In this document: piece after piece, positions 16,218 through 23,095 of the stretch
Layout: each line of letters opens with the position of its first letter
Position numbering within the stretch: the first letter of the stretch is position 1
Source of the DNA: Roseomonas sp. KE0001
GTDB taxonomy: Bacteria > Pseudomonadota > Alphaproteobacteria > Acetobacterales > Acetobacteraceae
Reading direction: 5' to 3'
Assembly (NCBI RefSeq): GCF_016107285.1
Contig: NZ_RCVQ01000006.1
Coordinates: forward strand, 186,001-250,000
Length of the DNA stretch: 64,000 bases
The notes under the pieces: generated by a model
The model's input: only the letters and a program-made list of their open reading frames with translations
What the model was told of the DNA's origin: nothing
The model's database searches: none
Position numbers and translations under genes: made by a program

Positions 16218-16379
16218 TCAGGCCCAGCCGCGTCCCGCCACCAGCGAGATCAGGAACAGGACCAGGAAGATCACGAAGAGGATCTTCGCGATGCCGCTGG
16301 CCGCCGAGGCCACGCCGGAAAAGCCCAGCACGCCGGCGACCAGGGCAATGACGAGAAAGATCAGTGTCCAGTAAAGCAC
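16218..16379 (-). CDS. DUF1328 small membrane protein
   Basis: A 53-residue protein, almost entirely two hydrophobic helices separated by [14 protein letters not shown], the DUF1328 (YtjA) signature [19 protein letters not shown]. The start is GTG at 16379 with AAGGAG eight bases upstream; the longer frame starting at 16427 adds an unrelated charged segment. The function of the family is unknown, but such small inner-membrane proteins are often stress-induced. A candidate EcfG-type promoter (16440-16465) lies about 60 bases upstream, which would place it in the general stress regulon. Confidence 0.85.
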
Positions 16380-16439
16380 GGTGACGTCTCCTTCGGTCCT
16401 GTCGCCCTCGCCGGAGTTGCGGGGCATGACGACCGGAGG

Positions 16440-16465
16440 AACGCCGTGCTTCGGATCACGGTTTC
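16440..16465 (-). promoter_or_regulatory. candidate EcfG-type promoter for DUF1328 gene
   Basis: On the minus strand: GAAAC (16465-16461), 17-base spacer, CGTT (16443-16440). The known alphaproteobacterial general-stress consensus is GGAAC-N16/17-CGTT, so there is one mismatch. It overlaps the last bases of phyR and points at the DUF1328 start about 60 bases away. Confidence 0.45.
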
Positions 16466-17189
16466 AGCCGATGGGAACCGTCGCGGAAACCGCCTGGTAG
16501 GTCGCGATGGCAAGAGCCAGCGGCTCGAAAGGCTTGCTGATGACGAAGGCGGGCTCGACCTGCTCCGCCGTCAGCAGCCGCTCCGGATAGGCCGTGACGA
16601 AGACCACCGGCACCTTCAGCTCCTGCTGGATGCGGTTGACGGCGTTGATCCCGTCCCCGCCCATGCCGAGGTTCACGTCGGCCAGGATCAGCCCGGGGTG
16701 CCGCTCCTGCGCCAGCCGGACCGCCTGCGCCTCGCTGGCCGCGACGCCGATCACCCGGTGGCCGCAGGCCTCGACCAGCTGGCGCACATCCATGGCGATG
16801 ATCGGCTCGTCCTCGATCACCAGGATGTCGGTGGCGGCGGCGTCGCGCAGGGATTGCCGCGCCTCCGACAGCTCGGTCTCCGCCACGTCCAGCGGCACGC
16901 CGACGACGCGGGCGGCCTCCTGGGCGGTCAGCTCCTCCAGCGCGGTCAACAGCAGGAGCTGCCGGTGCCGCAGAGTGAGGCTGCCGCCCGCCGCGCCTTC
17001 CCGCACGGGCGTCATCTGCGTCACGCCGGCGTACAGCGACAGCCGAGGGGGAAGGTCCGGCGGCAGGCCCTCGCGCAGGGCGCTGGCGACCAGCGCATCG
17101 CCCTCCGCCTGGCTGCCGGTCAGGGCGCGGGCATAGCGCCGCGCGGGGGGCAGGGCCCGCAGAAGCTCGGCGTGGTGTGCGGCGTTCAT
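16464..17189 (-). CDS. phyR: PhyR anti-anti-sigma response regulator
   Basis: A 241-residue protein with the diagnostic PhyR order: an N-terminal sigma-factor-like domain (about 1-115) and a C-terminal receiver domain (about 121-235). Receiver residues visible: Glu126/Asp127 in IEDEP, phospho-acceptor Asp171 in LILADVNLG, Thr199 in VTAYPE, Lys219 in SKPFEP. When phosphorylated, PhyR binds NepR through the sigma-like domain and frees EcfG. It is divergent from the first EcfG-type gene (53 bp gap), with nepR and a candidate kinase 1.5-3.5 kb away. I see no EcfG-type promoter in the divergent gap. Confidence 0.95.
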   Translation of the reverse strand: MNAAHHAELLRALPPARRYARALTGSQAEGDALVASALREGLPPDLPPRLSLYAGVTQMTPVREGAAGGSLTLRHRQLLLLTALEELTAQEAARVVGVPLDVAETELSEARQSLRDAAATDILVIEDEPIIAMDVRQLVEACGHRVIGVAASEAQAVRLAQERHPGLILADVNLGMGGDGINAVNRIQQELKVPVVFVTAYPERLLTAEQVEPAFVISKPFEPLALAIATYQAVSATVPIG

Positions 17190-17242
17190 ATCGTGGCCCT
17201 CGTATCGGTCCTAAGCTGCAGCAGAACTTTGAACAGGAAAGA

Positions 17243-17761
17243 ATGTCCAATCAAACAGACCCGATCCGGACGCGGCTTCCCGCCGTGTTGCCGGATCTGA
17301 GGGCCTTTGCCCGCTTCCTGGCGCGCGACGCCTTCCTGGCCGACGATCTGGTCCAGGAAGCCGTGTTGCGCGGATTGCGGTCCGAAACGCAATGGGATCC
17401 TGCAACCAGCCTGCGGGCCTGGATGTTCCGGATTCTGCGCAATGTCTTCCTGGAGCAGGCGCGTCGGCGGGGCACGGAGAAGCGGGTGCTGGAGCAGTTG
17501 CCGGAACCGGGCCAGGCGCCTCCCGGTCAGGAGATGCATGGTGAGATGTCGGATCTGGCGCGCGCTCTGCAAGGGCTGCCGCTGCCCCAGCGCGAGGCGC
17601 TGATCCTGGTCGGCGCGCATGGCCTCTCTCACGAGGAGGCGGCCGCGGTCTGCGGGGTGCCGGTGGGCACGGTCAAGGCCAGGGTGTCGCGTGCGCGACT
17701 GGCGCTTGCGCGGCGGTTCCAGTCCGCGCCGGCCGCCGGAGAAGGGTCCGTGGAGGATTGA
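17243..17761 (+). CDS. ecfG: EcfG-type ECF sigma factor (first copy)
   Basis: A 172-residue ECF sigma factor with region 2 (DDLVQEAVLRGLR, then SLRAWMFRILRNVFLEQARRR) and region 4 (LPLPQREALILVGAHGLSHEEAAAVCGVPVGTVKARVSRAR, read as two segments around the HTH). Location beside phyR and similarity to the EcfG/sigma-EcfG family indicate a general stress sigma factor. ATG 17243 has AGGAAAGA just upstream. A second paralogue lies 211 bp downstream. The two share the WMFRILRN and HEEAAAV/YEEAAAV elements but differ widely elsewhere, so they are not a recent duplication. Confidence 0.88.
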   Translation: MSNQTDPIRTRLPAVLPDLRAFARFLARDAFLADDLVQEAVLRGLRSETQWDPATSLRAWMFRILRNVFLEQARRRGTEKRVLEQLPEPGQAPPGQEMHGEMSDLARALQGLPLPQREALILVGAHGLSHEEAAAVCGVPVGTVKARVSRARLALARRFQSAPAAGEGSVED

Positions 17762-17877
17762 TGCGGAAAGGCGCCGGGCCGGGCGATGCCGGATCGGTGG
17801 GCCGATGAGGCGGAAGTGGGGCGTGGCAGGCATGGATTGCCGCGACAAGCGCGCACCGGCCAAAAGGTTTCCGGAAG

Positions 17878-17902
17878 AAAACGCATGCCTGATATGCGTT
17901 TT
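17878..17902. terminator. 9-bp inverted repeat with T-run between the two sigma genes
   Basis: Perfect arms at 17878-17886 and 17894-17902 (AAAACGCAT and its complement) around a 7-base loop, ending in TTTTT (17899-17903). It can act as a terminator for the first sigma gene; because the outer arms are A/T pairs it could also be an operator just upstream of the second sigma gene's promoter. Confidence 0.5.
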
Positions 17903-17913
17903 TCGGCCATGTC

Positions 17914-17939
17914 GGAAGCAACCCTCTCCTTCGGCCGTT
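17914..17939 (+). promoter_or_regulatory. candidate EcfG-type promoter for second sigma gene/nepR/kinase
   Basis: GGAAG (17914-17918), 17-base spacer, CGTT (17936-17939): one mismatch to GGAAC-N16/17-CGTT. The CGTT is 33 bases before the ATG at 17973. It would make the sigma-nepR-kinase operon autoregulated. Confidence 0.55.
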
Positions 17940-17972
17940 CATTGGTGGGTCATGCAAGGCGAGAAGACAATC

Positions 17973-18617
17973 ATGACCCATGAGATGGCCACCCTCGAAG
18001 CCGATCGCACCTCCGCCACCGCGACGGCGAGCTTTCATGACCAGCTCGTGGCCATCCTGCCGCGTCTGCGGGTGCAGGCCGTCTCCATGACCCGCAACCG
18101 GGCCGATGCCGACGATCTGGTCCAGGCGGCGGTCAGCAACGCCCTGGCCGCGCAGGCGAGCTTCACCCCTGGCACGAATTTCGGCGCCTGGATGTTCCGC
18201 ATCCTGCGCAACCGCTTCCTCTCCGACATCCGCCGCAAGCGCGACACCTGCGACATGGACAGCGCCCCGGCGGAGGCGCTGGCCCGGCCGGCGGCCCAGG
18301 AGGACAGCCTGGCGCTCCGCGAACTGCGCCGCCGCCTGGCGGATCTGCCCGCGGATCACCGCACCGCCCTGCTGCTGGTGACGGTGCAGGGCATGTCCTA
18401 CGAGGAGGCCGCCGCGGTGATGGAATGCGCGGTCGGCACCGCCAAGTGCCGCGTCTTCCGGGCCCGGCGTCAGCTCGAGGCCTGGCTGACCGGCGAGCCG
18501 CAGGTCGCGCGCCGCAAGGCGGCACCGGCCGAGGCTGGCGAGACGCGCCGCCGGGATGCTAGCCTTCGCACCGCCGGCCGTGCAACCGGAACGCAGGCCC
18601 TGCATTTGGGAAGCTGA
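17973..18617 (+). CDS. ecfG: EcfG-type ECF sigma factor (second copy)
   Basis: A 214-residue ECF sigma factor: region 2 with MTRNRADADDLVQAAVSNAL and FGAWMFRILRNRFLSDIRRKR, region 4 with LPADHRTALLLVTVQGMSYEEAAAVMECAVGTAKCRVFRAR, and a basic C-terminal tail. ATG 17973 has GAGAAG six bases upstream; ATG 17952 is possible but lacks a clear Shine-Dalgarno. Its TGA overlaps the nepR ATG (TGATG), the classical ecfG-nepR coupling seen here in the order sigma then anti-sigma. A candidate EcfG promoter precedes it. Confidence 0.9.
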   Translation: MTHEMATLEADRTSATATASFHDQLVAILPRLRVQAVSMTRNRADADDLVQAAVSNALAAQASFTPGTNFGAWMFRILRNRFLSDIRRKRDTCDMDSAPAEALARPAAQEDSLALRELRRRLADLPADHRTALLLVTVQGMSYEEAAAVMECAVGTAKCRVFRARRQLEAWLTGEPQVARRKAAPAEAGETRRRDASLRTAGRATGTQALHLGS

Positions 18618-18835
18618 TGGATCAGAGAGCGGACAAGCGTGTTTTGGCGGAGCCCGGGAAATCATCGCAGCGCCCGTCCGGCGGGCGTGCGCGCAAGGGC
18701 ACGCCGGATGCGGCGTTCGACATCTGGCTACAGCGGGGGCTCCACGCCATGTTCGACGGCGTGGCTAAGGAGCCCATCCCTGAGGAACTGCTTCGGTTGA
18801 TCGAGGACGATCGGACGGGGAAGAAAACGACGTGA
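18617..18835 (+). CDS. nepR: NepR anti-sigma factor
   Basis: A 72-residue protein. The core FDIWLQRGLHAMFDGVAKEP (about 36-55) followed by IPEELLRLIEDD corresponds to the two helices by which NepR holds EcfG or, under stress, phospho-PhyR. The flanks are charged and probably disordered, as usual. It overlaps the second sigma gene by one base and the downstream kinase by four (GTGA), so the three form one translationally coupled unit: sigma, its inhibitor, and a sensor that can activate PhyR. Confidence 0.93.
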   Translation: MDQRADKRVLAEPGKSSQRPSGGRARKGTPDAAFDIWLQRGLHAMFDGVAKEPIPEELLRLIEDDRTGKKTT

Positions 18836-20622
18836 GTTCTTCGGCGCCCCCGAAAGGGTGGGCGCTGCACCGATTGCTCCGCGGCGTCCGCGGACCAATG
18901 CTGCTGCTGCTCATGGTCGCTAGCGTGCCTGTCATCGGCATCGCTGGCGCCAATGCCGTTCTGAGCTACGAAGCGGAACTGGCAGCGGGCCGGCGCAACG
19001 CCACGATCCTGGTCGATATCGCGGCGGCCCGGCACGGCTCCACCATCGCGAGCCTGCGCCAGACGCTGCAGGGCATCGCCACCGACACGCGCCTGCTGCG
19101 CGACACGGCGGAAAGCTGCAGCACGCTTCTCTCCACCTTCAGCGCCGCCAATCCGGGCCGCTACTCCAACATCTGGGTCATGGACCGCGACGGGCAGACC
19201 CGGTGCAGCAGCATCGCGCTCCTGACCACGCCCCAGAAGGATTCCGCGACAGCGCACCGCGCCATGATGGGTCGGGACTTTATTCTCGGTCCTTTCCAGC
19301 AGGGCGCCGTCACCGGCCGCCCCGTCATCATCGGCGCGGTGCCCATCCTTGCCGAGGGCGAGGCGCAGGGGGTCATCGCCGCCGGCCTGCTGCTCGAGTA
19401 TTTCGTTCGCAGCGAAGGCCGGGACCAGGGTCGCCAGGGGCAGCGCATCTGGCTCGTCGACGCGGAGGGCAGCGCGCTGCCGCTGACCCAGGCGGGCGCG
19501 ATCGAACTGCCGGAACCCGGGATGCTCCGGCAATTGCAGGACGCCTCGGGCATCGCCGCGCTGGAGGCGCGCTCCCAGGCCGGGGCGGACTACGCCTATG
19601 CCAGCGCCCGTCTCGCGCCGGGGCTGAGCGTGCTGGTCGGCCTGCCGATCGGCGAGATCCGCAGCACCGCCATGGCGGTGCTGCTGCGGCGGGTGGCCGA
19701 GCTGGCGGCCTTCCTGCTGGCCTGCCTCGTGGTCATCGTCGTCGGCGCCGACATCGCCATCGCCCGGCCGCTGCGGCGCCTGGCGGCGCGGGTGCGCGGC
19801 TGGCAGCCCGGGGCGCCCTTCGGCCGCGCCGCCCAGCGTGGCGAGCCGGAGGAGGTGCAGGCGCTGGAGCAGGCCTTCGATGATGCCGCCCGCGCCATCG
19901 CGGGGCGCGAGGAGGAGTTGCAGGCCGCGCTGCGCCAGCGGGACCTGTTGATGGCCGAGATCCATCACCGGGTGAAGAACAACCTGCAGATCGTCGCCTC
20001 GCTGCTGAACCTGCAGGCCGGCCGCCTGCGCGATCCGCGCGCCCGGGCGGAGTTCGCCACCGCGCGCGACCGTGTCCAGGCGCTGGCGACGCTGCACCGC
20101 CATCTCTACACCAACCGCACCTTCGAGGTCATCGCGCTCCGCCCCTTCCTCGAGGAACTGGGGCATCAGCTCTTCGCCGCCATGGGCGAACGGCCGGGGC
20201 AGCGGATCAAGCTGGCGGTGGAGGCGGACGAGCTGGAGATCCTCACCGACCAGGCCGTCTCCCTCGCCCTGCTGATCACCGAGACCGTGACCAACGCCAT
20301 CAAGCACGGCTTCCCGGACGCGCGCAGCGGCACCGTGACCATCGCCGTGCATGCCGAGGGGGACGAGGTGACGCTGACCGTGCGGGATGACGGGCTGGGC
20401 CTGCGCCTGGAGGACAATGCGCAGGACCGGGGTATCGGCCTGACGCTGATCCGCGGCTTCGCCCAGCATCTCGGCGGCGAGGTCGAGATCCGGCAGGCGG
20501 GGGGCACCGAGCTTCGCCTGCGCTTCACCCTGCGGCGCCGCGAGGCCGAGCCCGAGCCGCCGCTCCGCAGGGAAAGGGCCGAGGGGGGGAACGAGCAGGT
20601 GGCGGCGCAACCAGAAGCTTGA
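18832..20622 (+). CDS. membrane sensor histidine kinase, HisKA_2 type (probable PhyR kinase)
   Basis: A 596-residue kinase: membrane helix about 20-44, extracytoplasmic sensor of about 240 residues (Cache-like by length and pattern, not certain), membrane helix about 283-305, HAMP-like linker, HisKA_2 dimerisation domain with EIHHRVKNNLQIVASLLNLQ (phospho-His at 378), and an HATPase domain with ETVTNAIKHGF, DDGLG and GIGLTLI. HisKA_2 kinases are the family that phosphorylates PhyR. The GTG start overlaps nepR. This context makes it the likely stress input for the PhyR-NepR-EcfG switch. The signal it senses is unknown. Confidence 0.88.
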   Translation: MSSSAPPKGWALHRLLRGVRGPMLLLLMVASVPVIGIAGANAVLSYEAELAAGRRNATILVDIAAARHGSTIASLRQTLQGIATDTRLLRDTAESCSTLLSTFSAANPGRYSNIWVMDRDGQTRCSSIALLTTPQKDSATAHRAMMGRDFILGPFQQGAVTGRPVIIGAVPILAEGEAQGVIAAGLLLEYFVRSEGRDQGRQGQRIWLVDAEGSALPLTQAGAIELPEPGMLRQLQDASGIAALEARSQAGADYAYASARLAPGLSVLVGLPIGEIRSTAMAVLLRRVAELAAFLLACLVVIVVGADIAIARPLRRLAARVRGWQPGAPFGRAAQRGEPEEVQALEQAFDDAARAIAGREEELQAALRQRDLLMAEIHHRVKNNLQIVASLLNLQAGRLRDPRARAEFATARDRVQALATLHRHLYTNRTFEVIALRPFLEELGHQLFAAMGERPGQRIKLAVEADELEILTDQAVSLALLITETVTNAIKHGFPDARSGTVTIAVHAEGDEVTLTVRDDGLGLRLEDNAQDRGIGLTLIRGFAQHLGGEVEIRQAGGTELRLRFTLRRREAEPEPPLRRERAEGGNEQVAAQPEA

Positions 20623-20631
20623 GCGTGCGTT
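20607..20631 (+). promoter_or_regulatory. candidate EcfG-type promoter for small lipoprotein gene
   Basis: GCAAC (20607-20611), 16-base spacer, CGTT (20628-20631), one mismatch to the general-stress consensus. It overlaps the end of the kinase gene and lies 32 bases before the ATG at 20664. Confidence 0.45.
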
Positions 20632-20663: not shown

Positions 20664-20855
20664 ATGCGCAAACTGATGAGCCTGACGCTTCCCGTCCTGG
20701 CCCTGGCCCTGCCGATGATGGCCTGCAGCGAGGGGCCCGGCGAGCGGGCCGGGCGCGGCCTGGACCGTGCCGGTGAGAACATCCGCGACACCATCGACCC
20801 GCCGAAGGGGCCGGGCGAGCGCATGGGCCGTAGCATCGACCGCGCCCTCGACTGA
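20664..20855 (+). CDS. small probable lipoprotein with internal repeat
   Basis: A 63-residue protein: signal peptide MRKLMSLTLPVLALALPMMA then Cys21, an atypical lipobox (MMAC). The mature part holds a 13-residue element twice, GPGERAGRGLDRA and GPGERMGRSIDRA, joined by ENIRDTIDPPK. Unknown function; likely anchored in the envelope. It follows the kinase by 41 bases but has its own candidate EcfG promoter. The LDRA element also appears in the larger lipoprotein at 26886-27236, suggesting a related family of stress-induced envelope proteins. Confidence 0.75.
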   Translation: MRKLMSLTLPVLALALPMMACSEGPGERAGRGLDRAGENIRDTIDPPKGPGERMGRSIDRALD

Positions 20856-20890: not shown

Positions 20891-20916
20891 GCAACTGGTC
20901 GCCCGGAGGTCACGTT
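20891..20916 (+). promoter_or_regulatory. candidate EcfG-type promoter for DUF883 gene
   Basis: GCAAC (20891-20895), 17-base spacer, CGTT (20913-20916); one mismatch. The CGTT is 40 bases before the ATG at 20957. Confidence 0.45.
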
Positions 20917-20956: not shown

Positions 20957-21229
20957 ATGGCCCGCAGCTCGTCCTCCTCCTTCGACACCTCCTCCGTCGA
21001 GGAGCGCATCGCCGATCTTCGCCGCAAGGTGGAGGATCTGATGGAGGAGCAGATCACCCCGGCCGTCTCCCGCGCGGCCGGCAAGGCGCAGCATCTGGCG
21101 CAGCGTGCCAAGAGCACCGCCCGCCACGAGGCCGATCACGCCGTGGACTTCATGCGTGAGCGGCCGCTGGCCACCGTGGCCGTGGCGGTCGGCGTCGGCT
21201 TCCTGATCGCCCAGCTTCTGCGCCGCTGA
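20957..21229 (+). CDS. DUF883/ElaB-YqjD-like membrane-anchored protein
   Basis: A 90-residue protein: Ser-rich N terminus, an amphipathic charged helix (about 14-60), then a single C-terminal helix ERPLATVAVAVGVGFLIAQLLRR, the tail-anchor signature of the ElaB/YqjD/DUF883 group. Members in enterobacteria are stationary-phase proteins associating with ribosomes or stress tolerance; here the role is inferred only. GGAG lies about ten bases upstream. The next gene starts five bases after the stop. Confidence 0.85.
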   Translation: MARSSSSSFDTSSVEERIADLRRKVEDLMEEQITPAVSRAAGKAQHLAQRAKSTARHEADHAVDFMRERPLATVAVAVGVGFLIAQLLRR

Positions 21230-22281: not shown

Positions 22282-22674
22282 CTACCCGCGCAGGACGCGA
22301 TAGCCCTGCAGGGCGAAGGTGGCGCCGGCCAGGCCCAGCGCGGCGAGGCCGGCGCGGTCGGCGTGCCACATCAGCCGCTCCGCCAGGACGGCGGCGAGCT
22401 GGCGATGGCCGTCCGGGCCGCGCAGGCGCCGTCCGCCCTCGCCGGCCAGGGCGGAAAGCTGCCGCCAGAGGCCGGTGCGGCGCAGATCGATGCGGGGGAT
22501 CTGCAGGGCGGCGCCCCACAGGCCGAGCCAGACCGCGGCGGTCATGAGGGCGCCGCTTTGCAGGGCGAGGACAGGATCCTCCCCCAGCCCGAACATGACG
22601 GCGAGAATGGCGAGAGCCGCGGCACACAGCACGCGACGGATCGAGTGGTCAGCCAGACTGCGCAGCATATCCAT
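22282..22674 (-). CDS. unknown small membrane protein
   Basis: Not recognised as a named family. The 130-residue product has two adjacent N-terminal membrane helices (about 20-37 and 43-62), a basic cytoplasmic stretch with GGRRLRGPDGHRQ, and a C-terminal weakly hydrophobic helix. ATG 22674 is preceded by an AGGAAGAGG run; an ATG nine codons earlier would absorb that site. It lies 146 bases upstream of marR on the same strand. Confidence 0.65.
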   Translation of the reverse strand: MDMLRSLADHSIRRVLCAAALAILAVMFGLGEDPVLALQSGALMTAAVWLGLWGAALQIPRIDLRRTGLWRQLSALAGEGGRRLRGPDGHRQLAAVLAERLMWHADRAGLAALGLAGATFALQGYRVLRG

Positions 22675-23095
22675 CCGGGCCTCTTCCTTCCTCCTCCGCA
22701 TGCTGACGCCGCCGCCAGGAAGATGCTAGCCGCATTATCGCCTCATGCGGGACCGGGAGGCCCATCGGCCCTGCGTCCCGGCCATGCCTCGGGGCCTGCC
22801 GTCATGTCCCGAGGCGCATGCTTCGCCGGACAAACGACCGAGGCGATGCCAGCGTTGCAGCGTGCCCGGCCGGGAGCGGACGGTCCTGAAGAAGATGAAT
22901 AATATGTCATAACACGGCCCGGCTGACGATCCTGATTCCCTTGCCCTTCTCCACCACGCCACAATCCGGGCAGCATGCCCGACCGCCCCTCGCAGGCGGC
23001 GGAAAGGCTGACCGCGTGACCAAGAGCGCGGGACCATCAACAATAAGGAGACCCGGCCGCGGCCCCGCCGCAGCCAGCCGGGAAGGGTAGGGAAA
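22675..23095. other. 421-bp intergenic region upstream of MFS gene
   Basis: No convincing gene. An A/T-rich patch at about 22888-22913 is the likeliest promoter area for the MFS gene on the plus strand, though no good -35/-10 pair is visible. AAGGAG near 23045 has no start codon at a usable distance. The real ribosome site for the MFS gene is the G/A-rich run just before 23096. Confidence 0.5.

Follow-up and report, generated by a model that had tools for sequence, protein, structure and literature searches.

A tandem two-EcfG form of the general stress response locus in Roseomonas sp. KE0001 and other Acetobacteraceae

In a stretch of 64,000 nucleotides from Roseomonas sp. KE0001 (contig NZ_RCVQ01000006.1, positions 186,001 to 250,000; in the following the window, to which all coordinates refer unless stated otherwise), the genes at 16464-20622 encode proteins of the PhyR-NepR-EcfG type known from the general stress response (GSR) of alphaproteobacteria, with two EcfG-type sigma factors at a single locus. 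The gene order comprises phyR on the reverse strand (16464-17189), followed on the forward strand by the genes of the first EcfG-type sigma factor, here S1 (17243-17761), and of the second one, S2 (17973-18617), by nepR (18617-18835), and by the gene of a HisKA_2 membrane histidine kinase (18832-20622). The starts of phyR and S1 are separated by a divergent control region of 53 bp (17190-17242), which carries no EcfG-type promoter motif. Exactly 211 bp lie between the S1 stop codon and the ATG of S2 at 17973, S2 and nepR share a TGATG at 18617, and the last 4 bp of nepR (GTGA, 18832-18835) are also the first of the kinase gene. The initial annotation of the window had described phyR as divergent from S1 and had reported the 211-bp gap and both stop/start overlaps, all of which are confirmed by the coordinates.

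PhyR, an anti-anti-sigma response regulator composed of a sigma-like domain and a receiver, reached 251.2 bits with the full-length family model NF006623 of NCBIfam (curated cut-off 240); its domains PF22029 and PF00072 both exceeded their cut-offs, and PhyR structures were the top matches in the PDB. The anti-sigma factor NepR scored slightly under the Pfam cut-off (23.3 versus 25.7 bits), this being the sole family match of the protein, and was found in 50 of 100 relatives, with matches down to an E-value of 5e-31 and a conserved position beside EcfG. For the kinase, HisKA_2 (84.7 bits) and HATPase (49.3 bits) domains over the respective Pfam cut-offs and a dCache-like sensor were detected. 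It aligns to PhyK over the full length and reaches 231.6 bits with the NCBIfam PhyK model, but since the equivalog cut-off of 750 is not reached, it is named PhyK-like only. The genome of the strain encodes seven HisKA_2 kinases, a single PhyR and only two EcfG proteins.

Both sigma factors are true EcfG (ECF15) proteins. In a rooted tree with other extracytoplasmic function (ECF) sigma factors of Acetobacteraceae, all EcfG, S1 and S2 sequences form one clade (support 100/98), in agreement with the initial annotation, which had described both as EcfG-type and had named a placement of S1 in a non-EcfG clade as the case that would speak against it. S1 forms a branch of its own (100/99). In the first rooted tree, S2 plus two sequences from outside Acetobacteraceae were likewise recovered as a branch (100/97); after removal of the long outgroup rows S2 was no longer one branch, and a single S2 clade was not rejected by the approximately unbiased test (p-AU 0.44). 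The same holds for an origin of S1 and S2 from one tandem duplication (p-AU 0.18). The second sigma factor of the two genomes from which these outside sequences come groups with S1 with modest support (82/90), and a similar two-sigma arrangement is present in G122 and G139, genomes of other families. The pair is not the product of a recent duplication; S1 is ancient, and the two-sigma layout is probably older than the Acetobacteraceae. A sequence search of the PDB returned the NepR-bound EcfG of Bartonella (5uxx) as the top match for both S2 (117 bits) and S1 (107 bits), and 5uxx was again the top match of both in a search with the predicted folds. For this fold match only, structure models of moderate confidence (predicted local distance difference test 77-79) with uncertain domain arrangement were used. 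S2 carries a tail of about 35-40 residues beyond sigma region 4 (18510-18617), which is predicted to be disordered.

Upstream of S2, an EcfG-type promoter, GCAAC-N17-CATT, is predicted at 17918-17943 on the forward strand. It belongs to a conserved type, G(C/T)AAC-N17-CATT; the strict motif precedes S2 in 66 of 75 NepR-linked loci, and in the genus alignment GCAAC-N17-CATTGGT is kept at this position. In the full set of 67 S2 loci that gave a strict match, the boxes are GCAAC in 57 and GTAAC in 9 cases, CATT in 63 cases, and the spacer is 17 bp long in 63 cases. GCAAC and CATT are documented variants of the EcfG boxes, with CATT less active than CGTT in those promoters that were tested (PMC7083833). 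The initial annotation was right in assigning S2 a promoter of its own, but the stretch resembling GGAA-N17-CGTT (GGAAG...CGTT) at 17914-17939, which overlaps this promoter in the window, is not kept by the relatives and was rejected. Among 34 loci of the family, the motif was found within 160 bp upstream of S2 in 30 (0.3 expected), upstream of S1 in two and upstream of phyR in none, whereas in canonical loci of other families it precedes phyR in 6 of 15. Because the motif precedes S2 and is absent before phyR and S1, the predicted autoregulation is concentrated on the S2-nepR-kinase operon. According to a review, both GSR units normally carry EcfG-type promoters (PMC8103513); here, no strict motif lies before phyR, and the core operon lacks GGAAC-N16/17-CGTT.

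An inverted repeat, GCATGCCTGATATGC (GCAT-N7-ATGC, 17883-17897), lies upstream of the S2 promoter and represents a possible binding site of a regulator or activator. The repeat was detected in 12 of 67 loci, and its distance to the -35 box downstream is 35 bp both here and in most of the others that have it; three such sites occur in the genome, and none of the reversed control pattern. A putative internal nepR promoter (18582-18606) was discarded, as this single match in the window recurs in no other locus of the genus. The scan of the locus for sigma-70 promoters gave no result, and terminator matches at the locus were at chance level only.

The five-gene order recurs in most Acetobacteraceae genomes that carry the module, so the layout is not due to chance. 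It is kept in 22 of 25 loci from named members of the family, including Pseudoroseomonas, Neoroseomonas, Elioraea, Roseococcus and Rhodovarius, and the kinase is absent from a few. In many small-genome Acetobacteraceae, no match to the module was found at all. S1 is present in 67 of the 75 NepR-linked S2 loci sampled from the family, nearly always beside phyR and S2. The eight loci devoid of S1 comprise seven of the main type and one extra S2-nepR copy in G005 (L044, 4116-5101), which has a GCAAC-N17-CATT promoter of its own and neither S1 nor phyR. An S1-type gene elsewhere in the genome was not found in the three S1-less genomes that were checked genome-wide, and a combination of S1 and nepR lacking S2 was not encountered at any locus, in a sampling that was anchored on NepR and S2 and that such loci could escape. 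Since S2 stays in the seven loci that have lost S1 and is duplicated together with nepR, it fits the role of the NepR-linked core copy. This had been proposed for S2 in the initial annotation and is supported; S2 is also the slower-evolving copy (median distance 0.34, compared with 0.45 for S1). In four other Acetobacteraceae genomes, G050, G043, G035 and G044 (L137, L145, L239 and L242), a canonical EcfG is found instead of the S1/S2 pair; it lies nearest to the Bartonella-type clade where it was placed in the tree, and a replacement by transfer is possible.

Taken together, the locus is best read as the Acetobacteraceae form of the core general stress locus, in which S2 would be the core, self-amplifying sigma factor, and S1 an ancient second EcfG that stands outside the feedback loop and is likely restrained by NepR. 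We assign this reading a probability of about 60%. Gene order, family membership, conservation, the placement of the promoter motif and the pattern of S1 loss were observed directly, whereas the partner switch itself is deduced from homology, and the binding of NepR by each sigma factor, the assignment of sigma factors to promoters and the role of S1 are likewise deduced. In the absence of stress, NepR would hold the EcfG sigma factor or factors. Stress sensed by the PhyK-like kinase would lead to phosphorylation of PhyR, which would then take NepR away. The freed EcfG would transcribe S2, nepR and the kinase gene from GCAAC-N17-CATT, a positive feedback that would be coupled at once to a negative one via nepR in the same operon, as the operon would provide, besides S2, its own inhibitor and the kinase. 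Flanking effector genes would be transcribed by the freed EcfG as well, from promoters of the type G(C/A)AAC-N16/17-CGTT. S1 would be made together with phyR, outside the loop; its likeliest role would be that of a pre-made, NepR-restrained sigma factor which helps to set off transcription from the S2 promoter and which some lineages can do without. A stricter version, a conserved two-stage relay, is proposed only tentatively: NepR-held S1, pre-made with PhyR, would activate the S2 promoter, S2 would in turn take charge of the regulon, and the CATT box would set the promoter of the switch apart from the effector genes with their CGTT boxes.

The restraint of S1 by NepR is considered more probable than not for two reasons: S1 is devoid of an EcfG-type promoter, and it retains a helix motif, LR-x-F-A-R, that is common to PhyR, canonical EcfG and S1. 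At the corresponding position S2 has LRVQA, and for this reason S1 looks at least as fit as S2 for binding NepR. The sigma-like domain of PhyR has 25% similarity to S1 and 22% to S2, which is not decisive. Several observations weigh against the interpretation given above. The missing helix motif could mean a weaker pairing of S2 with NepR, and correlated evolution with NepR gave no clear signal for either sigma factor (partial correlations of -0.08 for S1 and 0.13 for S2). The S2 promoter is kept in 62 of 67 loci with S1 and in 4 of 8 loci without it (Fisher p 0.006, a test which ignores shared ancestry and counts the extra copy); this association, uncorrected for ancestry, fits an action of S1 at the S2 promoter. 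On the other hand, the promoter persists without S1 in L149, L309 and L314, which indicates that S1 is not strictly needed for it; two members of one S1-less genus are among those that keep it.

The first alternative to be weighed, a possible though less probable one, is that S1 acts as an accessory or competing sigma factor under weak or no control by NepR and with a partly separate regulon, as described for EcfG2 of Rhizobium etli and SigU of Caulobacter. Paralogues outside the core that fail to bind NepR have been described (PMC3892343, PMC4814048), and both the loss of S1 from several lineages in which S2-nepR stays and its somewhat faster evolution would agree with such a role. The retention of S1 at most loci in the company of phyR and S2, and of the helix motif that PhyR and canonical EcfG also have, speaks against this view. 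Moreover, SigU and the EcfG2 of Sphingomonas are under EcfG control (PMC4814048), whereas S1 has no such motif, and hence S1, if free of NepR, should be permanently active. Of the accessory status suggested for S1 in the initial annotation, it stands that the gene can be lost while S2-nepR stays, but with a layout that is family-wide S1 is no loose extra.

An exchange of roles, with S1 as the main general stress sigma factor and S2 as an induced amplifier, is unlikely, even if the wiring is the same as that of EcfG2 and EcfG1 in Sphingopyxis granuli TFA, with S1 beside phyR and devoid of an EcfG promoter and with S2 and nepR together in an operon driven by EcfG (PMC7083833), and even if the sequence motifs of S1 are more canonical than those of S2. 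When only one of the two is left at a locus, it is S2, the more conserved protein, and not S1; the copy that occurs in duplicate along with nepR is also S2. That S1 is a redundant paralogue in slow decay with no distinct role is highly improbable: its loss in several lineages and a very divergent S1 in G031 (L135) could be taken as signs of decay, yet its core sigma residues are invariant across the family and the gene is kept in nearly nine tenths of the loci. A non-EcfG ECF origin of S1 is ruled out by the rooted tree, in which the EcfG clade contains S1, and has a negligible probability also in view of 5uxx as its top match by sequence and fold; nothing in its favour came to light.

Additional EcfG-type promoters are predicted next to the core genes, the window as a whole containing seven matches to the GCAAC-type motif compared with 0.89 expected. 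Beyond the end of phyR, GAAAC-N17-CGTT (16440-16465, reverse strand) precedes a DUF1328 gene (16218-16427) and is found at the same place in most loci of the genus. On the other side, GCAAC-N16-CGTT (20607-20631, forward strand) is located before a gene for a small lipoprotein-like product (ATG at 20664), with a similar match just past the kinase in other loci of the genus, and GCAAC-N17-CGTT (20891-20916, forward strand) before a DUF883 gene (20957-21229) as a match in the window. A further GCAAC-N17-CGTT match in the window lies at 22833-22858 on the reverse strand upstream of a small membrane-protein open reading frame (22282-22701). Genome-wide, GSAAC-N16-18-CRTT yielded 132 matches versus 85 for the reversed control, an excess that is too weak for naming regulon targets.

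An orphan NepR-like gene was identified elsewhere in the genome (C23:417530-417649, reverse strand; L038, 5531-5650) with the genes of an inositol-phosphatase-like protein and of a cation antiporter on either side. It is preceded by GGAAC-N16-TGTT in six relatives of the genus and by GCAAC-N16-GGTT in the strain itself. By analogy to NepR2 of Sphingomonas, its product may be induced by stress and act in negative feedback.

All parts of the locus are of known kinds. New with respect to the literature searched, in which no work naming EcfG together with these Acetobacteraceae genera was found, are the family-wide tandem two-EcfG locus, the predicted confinement of self-amplification to S2-nepR-kinase and the fixed GCAAC-N17-CATT promoter. 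The locus bears on the question why multiple EcfG copies are retained in so many alphaproteobacteria, as here the second EcfG belongs to the core locus throughout an entire family, which also includes acetic acid bacteria of industrial use. The defined difference in wiring, with no motif before phyR and a fixed promoter of the S2 operon, provides a clean and testable case for which the natural S1-less lineages can serve as comparisons.

With the PhyR-NepR-EcfG switch of Methylobacterium, Caulobacter and Sphingomonas, the locus shares all components, the divergent phyR and a HisKA_2/HWE kinase gene. It differs from the canonical arrangement in having two EcfG genes in tandem, a nepR located behind a sigma factor gene and coupled both to this gene and to the kinase gene, a phyR without EcfG-type motif, and GCAAC-N17-CATT instead of GGAAC-N16/17-CGTT as the S2 promoter. 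A second EcfG-type sigma factor in one cell is also known from Rhizobium etli (EcfG2) and Caulobacter (SigU), but the second EcfG of R. etli is encoded on a plasmid away from phyR and nepR (PMC3892343, PMC8103513) and not within the core locus. According to earlier work, the EcfG paralogues found in different species are of separate origin and share no function (PMC4814048, PMC8103513). The orphan NepR-like gene, with its EcfG-like motif upstream, can be likened to that of the feedback regulator NepR2 of Sphingomonas melonis Fr1 (PMC6599016) and, unlike the nepR described here, lies outside the two-sigma locus. A further parallel is the nepR2-ecfG1/ecfG2 locus of Sphingopyxis granuli TFA, a GSR locus that likewise contains two EcfG genes, of which one belongs to an EcfG-driven nepR operon and the other lies beside phyR without EcfG promoter (PMC7083833). 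The sigma units are divergent in Sphingopyxis and in tandem in the same direction here. In Sphingopyxis, the constitutive EcfG2 encoded next to phyR drives the nepR-ecfG operon (PMC7083833), and the roles of S1 and S2 may be divided in the same way or in reverse.

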